Shown here: positions 49,754 to 53,919 of the stretch, piece by piece
Position numbering within the stretch: position 1 is the first letter of the stretch
Layout of the letters: the number at the start of each line of letters is the position of its first letter
Assembly (NCBI GenBank): GCA_903921325.1
Contig: CAIXPL010000008.1
Span: 1-64,000 of the forward strand
From: an uncultured Pseudomonadota bacterium
GTDB taxonomy: Bacteria; Pseudomonadota; Gammaproteobacteria; Burkholderiales; SG8-39
DNA length: 64,000 bases
Direction: 5' to 3'
The notes under the pieces: generated by a model
The model's database searches: none
Seen by the model: the letters and a program-made list of their open reading frames with translations, nothing else
What the model was told of the DNA's origin: nothing
Program-made: the position numbers and the translations under genes

Positions 49754-52126
49754 ATGGCCGAGGATTCACGCGACCATGGCTTGCACGCGCTGAGGTCAGC
49801 GCGCGGATCACCTCGCGTAGCGGCGCGCCGGCTCATTGCCGGGCGCGGCCGCTATGGTGACGATCTGCGTTTTGCCGGACTGTGCCATGCAGCCTTTGTG
49901 CGCAGCCCGTATGCGCACGCGCGGATCGAACGGATCGATCTGCATCAGGCGCTCGGCTCACCGGGGGTGATCGCCGCCTTCGACGCGGCAAGCCTGGCAT
50001 CGACCTGCCGACCCTGGACCACGCGGCTGGCGACCTTCCCGCAGCACCGTTCGCCAGCCCAGGGGCCACTGGCCGCTGAGCGGGTACTCTGGCAAGGCCA
50101 GCCGGTGGCGTTGGTGATCGCAAGCACGCGCGCATTGGCCGAGGACGCGGCAGCGCTGATCGTGGTGGACTACGAACCGCTGCCTGCGGCGGCAGCCTTT
50201 CCGGCGGTACTTGAACCGGGCTCAGCGCAGGTCCATGACGCATGGCCTGGCAATCTCGCGTTTGAACACCGGATTGGCGCAGGCGATGTCGGCGCAGCCC
50301 GGGCGCGGGCCCATCGAGTGGTGAAACGCCGCTTTGTGTTCTCGCGCAACACCGGTGTGACGCTCGAAGCCCGCACGCTGATCGCAGATTTTGATCCCTC
50401 GTTGCGACGACTCACCGTGCACGCCTCAACCCAGGTGCCGCACCAGATGCGCTCGATTCTTGCAAGCCAACTGGACCTGCCCGAACATGACGTGCGCGTC
50501 ATTGCGCCTGACGTTGGCGGTGGATTCGGCGTCAAGTTGCATTGCTATGACGATGAGATGGCACTGTGCGCTGCTGCCGTACAGCTTGCCCGACCGCTCA
50601 AATTCGTTGCCGATCGACTGGAATCTCTCGCCAGCGATATTCACGGTCGTGGCCATGTGGTGGACGCCTCGATCGCGGTGGATCGCGACGGCCGCATACT
50701 CGGCCTGGATATTGACGATCAAATGGAGGCCGGGGCGCATTCGGTATACCCGCGCTCAAGCATCCTCGAAGGTTTGCAGTCGGCGGGGTTTGTCGCAGTT
50801 GCCTATGACCCGCAGGCGTTTGCCTCACGTCTGCGCGTGGCCTGGCAGAACAAGATTGGTACCGCGTCCTATCGCGGTGTCGGCCAACCGGTCGCCTGTG
50901 GGGTGACCGAGTTTCTTATTGATGCGGCAGCCCGCGAACTCGACGTTGATCCGGCCGAGATGCGCCGGCGCAATTTCCGTACTGCGGCCCGTGGTGGTTC
51001 GCGCACCCCGGCGGGGTTTGACGCCGGTGACCTCTCCCATGAGCGCTGCCTGAATCGCTTACTCGAGCTGATGGATTATCGAGGGTTGCGCGCCCGACAG
51101 CAGGCGGCTCGCGCGCAAGGACGCCATTTGGGAATCGGCTTTGCCAGCTTCGTTGAGCAAAACTCCCCTGGACCTGCGTTCTATGGCGCCGCCGGTGTCG
51201 CAATTTCAGCAATGGACGGCTGCATCCTGCGCCTTGACCCCGGTGGCGGGGTCAGTTGCATCACCAGCAATGTCGATCAGGGCCAGGGCGTGGAGAGCAC
51301 TCTGGCCCAATTGGTTGCCGACGCGCTGACCCTGCCTGCGCACGCGGTGCGGGTGATACAAGGCGATACGCTCACTACCCCGATCGGCGGTGGCATATTC
51401 GCATCGCGCGGGCTAACCGTTGCAGGCGAGGCAGCGCTGCTGGCAGCCGAGCGCTTGCGTGCTGGGTGGATGGCGACACTGGCTGCCGTGTGGCAGTGCC
51501 CTGTGGAACAGATCGAATTGCAAGCAGGCCTCTTGCGCTCGTCCGATGGCAGCCATTCGATGAGCCTTGCAGAGCTCGCCGATCTGCTCAATTTCCGTCA
51601 ACATCTGTTGCCCGCAGGCAGCGAACCAGCCACGCTCGCAAGCGCACAAGTGGTCCTGCCGCAGCCGTTTTTGCTCGCCAATGGATCGCAGGCGAGCCTC
51701 ATCGAACTCGATCCGGACACCGGATTTGTGCAACTGCTGGGCCACTGGCTGGTAGAGGATTGCGGCCGGGTGATCAATCCGCTGCTGGCCGACGAACAAT
51801 TGCGCGGCGGTGTCATCCAGGGCATCGGTGCGGCGCTGTATGAAGAGTGTCGCTACGATGACGAGGGTCAGTTGCTGACCGGAACCCTGGCCGATTATCT
51901 GGTGCCGATGGCGCAGGAGATGCCCGACATTGTGATCGAGCATATCGAAACGCCGGTAACGACCAGCCGCCTTGGTGCCAAAGGCGTGGGCGAAGCCGGC
52001 ACCATCGGTGCCGCAGCCGCAGTGGGTAACGCGATCAATGATGCGCTGGCCAGCCTCGGCGGAGAAGTCACCGCCCAGCCCTACACGCCTGAGCGCATCC
52101 TGCGCGCACTCGCGCGGGTCGCCTGA
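49754..52126 (+). CDS. Molybdopterin-binding large subunit of a molybdenum hydroxylase (CoxL/XdhA family), second paralogue
   Basis: ARRLIAGRGRYGDDLRFAGLCHAAFVRSPYAHARIERIDLHQAL...PDVGGGFGVKLHCYDDEMALCAAAVQLARPLKFVADRLE...SYRGVGQPV...KGVGEAGTIGAAAAVGNAINDAL. Confidence 0.93.
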   Translation: MAEDSRDHGLHALRSARGSPRVAARRLIAGRGRYGDDLRFAGLCHAAFVRSPYAHARIERIDLHQALGSPGVIAAFDAASLASTCRPWTTRLATFPQHRSPAQGPLAAERVLWQGQPVALVIASTRALAEDAAALIVVDYEPLPAAAAFPAVLEPGSAQVHDAWPGNLAFEHRIGAGDVGAARARAHRVVKRRFVFSRNTGVTLEARTLIADFDPSLRRLTVHASTQVPHQMRSILASQLDLPEHDVRVIAPDVGGGFGVKLHCYDDEMALCAAAVQLARPLKFVADRLESLASDIHGRGHVVDASIAVDRDGRILGLDIDDQMEAGAHSVYPRSSILEGLQSAGFVAVAYDPQAFASRLRVAWQNKIGTASYRGVGQPVACGVTEFLIDAAARELDVDPAEMRRRNFRTAARGGSRTPAGFDAGDLSHERCLNRLLELMDYRGLRARQQAARAQGRHLGIGFASFVEQNSPGPAFYGAAGVAISAMDGCILRLDPGGGVSCITSNVDQGQGVESTLAQLVADALTLPAHAVRVIQGDTLTTPIGGGIFASRGLTVAGEAALLAAERLRAGWMATLAAVWQCPVEQIELQAGLLRSSDGSHSMSLAELADLLNFRQHLLPAGSEPATLASAQVVLPQPFLLANGSQASLIELDPDTGFVQLLGHWLVEDCGRVINPLLADEQLRGGVIQGIGAALYEECRYDDEGQLLTGTLADYLVPMAQEMPDIVIEHIETPVTTSRLGAKGVGEAGTIGAAAAVGNAINDALASLGGEVTAQPYTPERILRALARVA

Positions 52127-52228
52127 ACGATGTCTTGCGCACTTGCCCAGGGGGCCTGCACCATGCTGCGCACACTTGCCGGGATCATCTGAATGATGCT
52201 CTGTCCATTTGCCGGGGTCGCCTGAGCC
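52097..52228 (+). repeat. Four degenerate 33-bp in-frame repeats spanning the coxL stop and ending exactly at the next start codon
   Basis: atcctgcgcgcactcgcgcgggtcgcctgaacg / atgtcttgcgcacttgcccagggggcctgcacc / atgctgcgcacacttgccgggatcatctgaatg / atgctctgtccatttgccggggtcgcctgagcc, then ATG of the next gene at 52229. Confidence 0.85.
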
Positions 52229-53389
52229 ATGCGTATCACCGCGGTGCACGAAACAACCTTGCCGATCGCCTCGGCCATGCGCAATGCCTCGATTGCCTTC
52301 GATGCCATGACCGGTAGCGCCCTCGCAATCGAGACCGATATGCGGCTGGCTGGCGCGCCGGTCGTCGGATATTCCTTTGACTCGATTGGCCGCTACGGCA
52401 AGGGCGGATTGTTGCGCGAGCGCTTTCTCCCGCGCCTGCTGGCGGCCGATGCACGCGAGCTGCAAGACGCCGATGGTGTGCTGGATCCAGCGGCCGCAGT
52501 GCGCATCTGCATGCGCAATGAAAAGGCCGGTGGACACGGTGAGCGACCCGGAGCCGTTGCACTCATCGAAGCGGCACTGTGGGACGCCCGTGCCAAGGCG
52601 CTTGAGCAACCGTTGTGGCGGGTACTTTCGGGTATTGCGTCAGGGCAGCCGGCCGCCTCGGCCAGCATCGCTACCTATGCCTCATGCGGCCATTTCCGCC
52701 CCGGCGAATCGCTCGATGAACTGCAGGCCGAGGTAACCCGCGCACTCGATGCCGGCTACACCCTGGTAAAAATCAAGCTTGGTGGCGATCTGAACGAGGA
52801 TCTGCGACGCGTATCGGCCGGACTTGCGGTGACCGGTCCGCTGCGGCTCGCGGGCGACGTCAACGGAGTGCTCGACGGCGCCTCAGGCGAAACCTGGGTA
52901 CGTGAGATCAGCGCGCAGCCGCTTGCCTTCATCGAAGAGCCAGCCAGCCCTCTTGATTATCTGGCACTTGCGCGTTTTTGCGCCACATCGAAGTGCGCAG
53001 TCGGCACCGGCGAGAACCTGTTCTCCTTTGATGACGTGCGCAATCTGTTACGTCATGGCGGCATGCACCCTGAGCGGGATCTGATTCAGATCGACCCCTT
53101 GCTTTCCTATGGCATCGAGGAGTTTATACGGATCCTTGCACTGGCTGGCTCGATGGGTTGGTCGCCGCGTCAGTTCTTTCCCCATGCCGGGCATTTGTAC
53201 GCCGCCCATCTGGTTGCCGGTCTCGGGCTGGGCAGCGCGGAAGCTGCCCCCGATGCGAGCCTTCCCTGGGGTGGCTACTGGGATGAGGTGCGGGTGCGCG
53301 ACGGCCATATCACCTTGCCCGACTGGCCCGGCGTCGGCTTCGAAGGCAAGCGCAATCTGATCACTCCACTACAATGGTGGCGAACCTAG
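52229..53389 (+). CDS. Mandelate racemase/muconate lactonizing enzyme (enolase superfamily) protein
   Basis: AALWDARAKALEQPLWRVLSG...GYTLVKIKLGG...RLAGDVNGVLDG...PLAFIEEPASPLDYLALARF...TGENLFSFDDVRNLLRHGGMHPERDLIQIDPLLSYGIEEF. Confidence 0.92.
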   Translation: MRITAVHETTLPIASAMRNASIAFDAMTGSALAIETDMRLAGAPVVGYSFDSIGRYGKGGLLRERFLPRLLAADARELQDADGVLDPAAAVRICMRNEKAGGHGERPGAVALIEAALWDARAKALEQPLWRVLSGIASGQPAASASIATYASCGHFRPGESLDELQAEVTRALDAGYTLVKIKLGGDLNEDLRRVSAGLAVTGPLRLAGDVNGVLDGASGETWVREISAQPLAFIEEPASPLDYLALARFCATSKCAVGTGENLFSFDDVRNLLRHGGMHPERDLIQIDPLLSYGIEEFIRILALAGSMGWSPRQFFPHAGHLYAAHLVAGLGLGSAEAAPDASLPWGGYWDEVRVRDGHITLPDWPGVGFEGKRNLITPLQWWRT

Positions 53390-53401: not shown

Positions 53402-53800
53402 ATGGCAAAACTGCGTCACATTGCCCTGTCGGTGCCCGATATCGAGGCTGCCGCCAAGTTCTATATCGACACCTTCGGAATGCAACGGGTCAACCTGGCG
53501 ATCACGCCTTATGGGGATGGTCTGTCGTTGTCCGACGGCACGGTAAATCTCACCTTGCTCAAATTCCATACCGAAGATGCCGCTGGCGATGAGCGTGGCA
53601 AGGACTTTGTCGGCCTGCACCACATGGGATTTGTTGTCGATGACCTGGAAGCAAGCAGCGCTCAGATCGAGACCAATGGCGGACACTTTCATCGCGAACT
53701 GAAAGGCGGTGGCGGGGTGGATTTCGAGCGCAAGTTCCGCGACCCCAATGGCATCGTGTTCGACATTTCGCACAAAGGCTGGGTGGGTTCGAAAGAGTAG
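53402..53800 (+). CDS. VOC-superfamily (glyoxalase/extradiol dioxygenase-like) protein
   Basis: MAKLRHIALSVPDIEAAAKFYIDTFGMQRVNLAITPYGDGLSLSDG...GLHHMGFVVDDLEASSAQIETNGG...FRDPNGIVFDISHKGW. Confidence 0.92.
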   Translation: MAKLRHIALSVPDIEAAAKFYIDTFGMQRVNLAITPYGDGLSLSDGTVNLTLLKFHTEDAAGDERGKDFVGLHHMGFVVDDLEASSAQIETNGGHFHRELKGGGGVDFERKFRDPNGIVFDISHKGWVGSKE

Positions 53801-53919
53801 GTTGAAGGAGTAGGATTCGCGCTCGGCGATGTAAGTCGCCAAGCTTCACAAGGCGGCAGGTACCGGGCGCTCACTCGCCCTGTGCGTACTGCCCCAAAAA
53901 ATCATCAGGGGACAAGCAC

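Follow-up and report, generated by a model that had tools for sequence, protein, structure and literature searches.

The locus examined here raises the question of what becomes of a tight operon junction when the stop and start codons that form it are multiplied, and whether a ribosome leaving the first gene could still be handed over to the second. It lies in a window of 64,000 nucleotides from an uncultured Pseudomonadota bacterium (contig CAIXPL010000008.1, positions 1 to 64,000), between a coxL-like gene and a gene of the enolase superfamily (Table 1). An NCBIfam run on four proteins, including these two, returned no equivalog at cut-off, and the name coxL therefore denotes the superfamily only. 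The neighbouring genes encode both Rieske-type ring-hydroxylating oxygenase subunits, a TRAP solute receptor, a glyoxalase-fold protein and a tricarboxylate-type solute receptor.

Between the two genes, four 33-bp units start at 52097, 52130, 52163 and 52196, as the sequence-only reading had described, and its estimate by eye of 18-24 identities in 33 is borne out by the pairwise counts (21, 24, 22, 18, 21 and 22 of 33). The blocks flanking the array match the units at just 6-15 of 33. This is the top four-copy site of 33-bp period in the window (z about 10), and its score of 12.4 lies far above the maximum of 5.9 obtained in 1,000 shuffles of the local sequence. Since the units are constant in length and arranged head to tail beyond chance, they form a tandem-repeat (minisatellite) array, which Tandem Repeats Finder missed because the units are too diverged. 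The four stop/start junctions read, in order, TGA-ACG-ATG, TGC-ACC-ATG, TGA-ATG-ATG and TGA-GCC-ATG, all as noted earlier, and the proposed change of TGA to TGC in unit 2 agrees with the relatives, in which TGA terminates coxL at the equivalent place. The start codon at 52229 also stands; its placement where a fifth unit would begin does not. The register 52100-52231 has the most identities (131 of 198, versus 128 of 198 for the register starting three bases earlier), and its unit consists of the last eight coxL codons, TGA, one codon and ATG, so that the real ATG closes the fourth copy instead of opening a fifth. A DNA search of the genus's three genomes with the units found clear similarity only as far as the coxL stop, and the units do not constitute a dispersed intergenic repeat family.

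Table 1. Coordinates of the genes, repeat units and mini-ORFs at the junction (positions in the window)
Feature	Position	Strand	Details
coxL-like gene, molybdopterin-binding large subunit (xanthine dehydrogenase / aldehyde oxidase superfamily)	49754..52126	+	Pfam Ald_Xan_dh_C, MoCoBD_1, MoCoBD_2
Four-unit 33-bp array	52097..52228 as first reported; best register 52100-52231	+	identity counts, shuffles
Unit 1	52100..52132	+	coxL C-terminus + TGA + ACG + ATG
Unit 2	52133..52165	+	stop changed to TGC, then ACC + ATG
Unit 3	52166..52198	+	TGA + ATG + ATG
Unit 4	52199..52231	+	TGA + GCC + ATG; ATG is the true start of the downstream gene
Putative relay mini-ORF 1, MSCALAQGACTMLRTLAGII-stop	52130..52192	+	begins 3 nt past the coxL stop
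Putative relay mini-ORF 2, MMLCPFAGVA-stop	52193..52225 (ATG 52193 or 52196)	+	stop 3 nt 5' of 52229
Enolase-superfamily gene (mandelate racemase / muconate lactonizing type), 386 aa	52229..53389	+	Pfam MR_MLE_C

The 33-bp period is mirrored on the opposite strand as an 11-residue pattern, which had earlier been mentioned as another way to read the array. A 398-aa antisense ORF is indeed present (51413-52609). GC-rich genes, however, usually have antisense shadow ORFs, and this one has a codon score of 19 over 399 codons, whereas the two sense genes that share this DNA score 65 and 32.5. That an antisense gene passes through the array, with its 11-residue repeats as a real feature, is hardly credible.

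The junctions of relatives, whose alignment had been proposed beforehand, bear on the origin of the array. In two sister species, the other two of the genus (enzyme 72% identical), the genes are separated by a 42-nt spacer with no 33-bp array. Among relatives at 51-56% identity, three loci (L007/L035, L036 and L037) have an ATGA gene overlap, L009 has the genes 4 nt apart with a TGA-AACG-ATG that resembles unit 1, and L047 has 29 nt between them. Tightness is thus mixed across the relatives, all of these junctions are tight or shorter, and an unrelated spacer of the same length was not seen. The duplication of a junction, one of the two origins offered by the sequence-only reading, is well supported by these data, and it is very probable that a once-tight gene junction was the starting point. 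The simplest history would be that this junction was stretched by three extra copies in this lineage. Jukes-Cantor distances among the units (0.29-0.70) are below the four-fold-site divergence from the sister (0.89-1.12), and the array is therefore probably younger than the split from the sister, assuming comparable neutral rates.

The sister spacer was also considered as a remnant of the same array and rejected as such (longest shared stretch 8 nt, P 0.09). This spacer (L005, L006 and L034) shows a weak period of its own, 14 bp long, in which CCTGA recurs (P 0.018 over all periods), which suggests that the coxL/enolase junction may have been duplicated independently there, with another unit.

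The array holds an unbroken path of starts and stops. When only ATG starts and stop-to-start steps of -4 to +3 nt are allowed, this path leads from the coxL stop at 52124 (TGA 52124-52126) to ATG 52130, stop 52190, ATG 52193 or 52196, stop 52223 and ATG 52229. Unit 2 is without its stop, yet the reading frame continues and closes in unit 3. The steps along the chain are 0-3 nt, within the near-start distance of coupling by termination-reinitiation (PMC6728339, PMC10666635; reviewed in PMC12548453), whereas the direct distance from the coxL stop to the real start, 102 nt, is by itself outside it. In reporter tests, coupling was largely lost at gaps of about 20-38 nt (PMC10666635), and a gap of 102 nt would accordingly need stepping stones or independent initiation.

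We lean, with some reserve, towards the view that the array arose when a translationally coupled junction was duplicated in tandem, leaving a retained termination-reinitiation relay from coxL to the enolase gene. The copied unit would run from the last eight coxL codons through the stop and one codon to the start of the enolase gene, and three extra copies would have widened the gap between the genes from about 3 nt to its present size. As 33 bp is a multiple of three, every copied ATG would share its reading frame with the stop in the copy that follows. On finishing coxL, a ribosome would restart 3 nt on, read the mini-ORF and stop, and this restart would be repeated 0-3 nt after each mini-ORF stop until the real start at 52229 is reached. 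The proposal builds on the array, the tighter junctions in relatives, the intact chain and the genome-wide duplications with a favoured phase described below, all of which are observed. The arrangement shares with known termination-reinitiation coupling a stop and a start within a few nucleotides of each other, and the ATGA overlap, the commonest form of that coupling, is what related junctions in this material had ancestrally. In the known form, however, one stop and one start join two genes, while here the junction is multiplied and coupling would proceed via mini-ORFs over 102 nt.

The mini-ORFs might instead be small functional peptides, and they are indeed open and ATG-initiated. Nevertheless, they repeat the coxL C-terminus in diverged form, they are missing in the sister species, and the coding signal in the coxL frame is small (1.9 over the spacer); a peptide function is very improbable. 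Elsewhere, repeats of this kind in spacers can have regulatory roles, and the units could on that ground form an RNA structure or a protein-binding array controlling the downstream gene. Against this, folding is weaker than in shuffles (z +1.3) and does not place the array among structured RNAs, no Rfam match lies above threshold, no promoter-like site was found in the array, and the units are not dispersed in the genus's three genomes. An RNA element, promoter or terminator within the array thus finds no support, and a regulatory array of this kind is about as improbable as a functional peptide.

A path of this kind occurs in 1.4% of shuffled spacers of the same composition. In simulations of neutral decay of such an array the chain is kept in 8-30%, so the coxL locus alone is no proof of constraint, and selection on the stops and starts inside the coxL array is not significant on its own. 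Neutral debris consequently stays a serious rival to the relay, and we rate this rival as a minority possibility of real weight. According to this explanation, short stretches at gene ends are often duplicated in the genome, the mini-ORF chain is a by-product passed on by inheritance, and translation of the enzyme begins at the start codon of its own gene. Retention of the chain is not improbable in those simulations, an open mini-ORF arises automatically from any duplication in relay phase, and a gene-end duplication would do no harm, since the upstream stop survives in the first copy and the downstream start in the last. The start at 52229 also has an anti-Shine-Dalgarno pairing of -5.7 kcal/mol versus a genome median of -3.8, an above-median match that makes independent initiation of the enolase-superfamily gene possible. 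The best such pairing in the array (-9.4 kcal/mol) belongs to an AGGGGG 8 nt 5' of the unit 2 ATG.

The genome as a whole provides evidence on both sides. A survey with a home-made gene-calling script covered 1.64 Mb (37%) of the genome G000, on contigs C8, C13, C16, C37 and C19. Tandem repeats were found at 75 of 1,096 gene ends (6.8%), 24 of them straddling the stop, in comparison with 12 of 992 gene interiors (1.2%; shuffles 2) and 5 of 271 gene ends of the sister (1.8%), where none straddles the stop. This excess at gene ends is what neutral debris would lead one to expect. In many of the G000 gene-end arrays, whose units measure 8-76 bp, the stop codon is repeated within the spacer.

A search for further tandem arrays of the stop-N3-start type had been suggested from the sequence. 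In its exact form it gave little, as the two other TGA-N3-ATG pairs spaced by exactly 33 bp in the genome have unrelated sequence between them. In a broader form, applied to same-strand junctions whose genes lie 8 nt or more apart, nine tandem-duplicated stop/start junctions were counted in the 1.64 Mb, versus 0 of 392 in five comparison genomes (P 0.014). At most of the nine, the new mini-ORF has a head like the downstream gene (gene B) and a tail like the upstream gene (gene A), as in MSIGSMPRLLAGRAMPGTRARPLQ-stop at C37:234369, which lies between a gene ending in YERPLQ and a gene starting with MTMSLMPPLM. The mini-ORF opened by the copied ATG ends on the start of gene B with a 4-nt overlap at C37:234369, C19:5950, C37:272736 and C13:68578; at C8:97615 it meets that start from a different ATG, and at C16:342081 the start is reached after one further step. 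In both sisters the orthologous junction to C37:234369 shows an exact ATGA overlap, according to match coordinates. The pair at C16:342081, CcmA/CcmB-like by resemblance, fits an ancestral overlap provided that the final residues are of equal length, and the C19:5950 pair is 8 nt apart in the sisters.

The length of the copied unit determines whether a duplication can keep the hand-over: an ATGA junction needs a unit of 2 mod 3 and a TGA-N3-ATG junction one of 0 mod 3. Eight of the nine duplicated junctions are in this relay phase, C16:342081 being taken by its 38-bp unit, a unit length with which the new mini-ORF would end on the gene B start (P 0.001 at a chance of 1/3; 0.02 at 1/2, if in-frame fusions go unseen). 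The phase hypothesis was formed on part of the same sample, and this first test is therefore not independent. With a slightly wider net that accepts only junctions whose copied start is intact, all nine junctions caught are in phase by unit, and eight of them by raw lag. Where ATGA stands on either side, the phases are 17:7:4, an excess of the relay phase (P 0.007); of the 22 such junctions without arrays, 12 are in relay phase (P 0.03). This bias speaks against neutral debris, as it is absent from the other spacer arrays, where unit lengths of 2 mod 3 are not in excess (23:13:14 for 0, 1 and 2 mod 3). There is also counter-evidence to relay selection. Three tight junctions have in-frame (fusion) duplications, and when these are counted as coupling-preserving, the count becomes 11 of 12 versus 2/3 expected (P 0.054). 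Exact relays of the form ATGA, mini-ORF, ATGA number 12 of 424 versus 1 of 185 in the comparison genomes, which is not a significant excess (P 0.12).

At 17 further relay junctions, the mini-ORF tails are more similar to the end of the upstream gene at the same junction than to upstream gene ends at other junctions (P below 0.0001), while their heads do not stand out in the same comparison (P 0.33). The likeness of the tails suggests that several of these junctions are probably decayed duplications.

The ladder of termination-reinitiation sites proposed in the sequence-only reading has thus an intact anatomy, and the genome-wide set favours the relay phase; that ribosomes use it we infer from this pattern, and such use is plausible, the balance lying near the middle. 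Selection would then have kept the chain. More tentatively, and short of an even balance, duplicated coupled junctions may repeatedly yield chimeric relay mini-ORFs throughout this lineage, with selection retaining the unit lengths that preserve the relay. If so, coupling would survive, or be tuned, over spacers of 60-110 nt that are beyond the reach of direct coupling, and decayed versions would resemble small, unannotated ORFs bounded by ATGA on either side. Some small ORFs of that form may consequently be duplicated junctions and not genes, which serves as a warning.

The relay would provide a simple mutational route to stretch a coupled operon junction without breaking the ribosome hand-over. 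It makes a sharp prediction, checkable in any genome, on unit length (2 mod 3 for ATGA, 0 mod 3 for TGA-N3-ATG), and natural ladders with differing numbers of units could address the debate on whether a ribosome that has terminated scans over long distances or requires a start close by. A literature search by words, mostly outside subscription journals, found no description of such junction duplications. The repeats of archaeal Borg elements, in the parts of the source consulted (PMC9879509), similarly often start inside a gene end and run into the spacer, and are lineage-specific and recent. They are near-perfect and A-rich, whereas the units described here are diverged, GC-rich and contain the next start codon, and those parts describe no stop/start relay. 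A synthetic short upstream ORF ending beside a gene start can raise translation of that gene (PMC13255528), but it was engineered to carry a strong ribosome-binding site internally and does not lie between two natural operon genes.

Other repeats were observed along the way. In the same cluster, a 13-14 bp repeat (GGTTCGAAAGAGTA / GGTTGAAGGAGTA) spans the stop of the glyoxalase-fold gene at 53786-53819 of the window, and 312-bp tandem repeats, 76-88% alike, occupy positions 1-2201, probably as a repetitive protein gene. Among the most recent-looking gene-end arrays is that at G000:C16:398214-398500, in which a 71-bp unit starting inside a gene end repeats the TGA of that gene in three copies about 94% alike.
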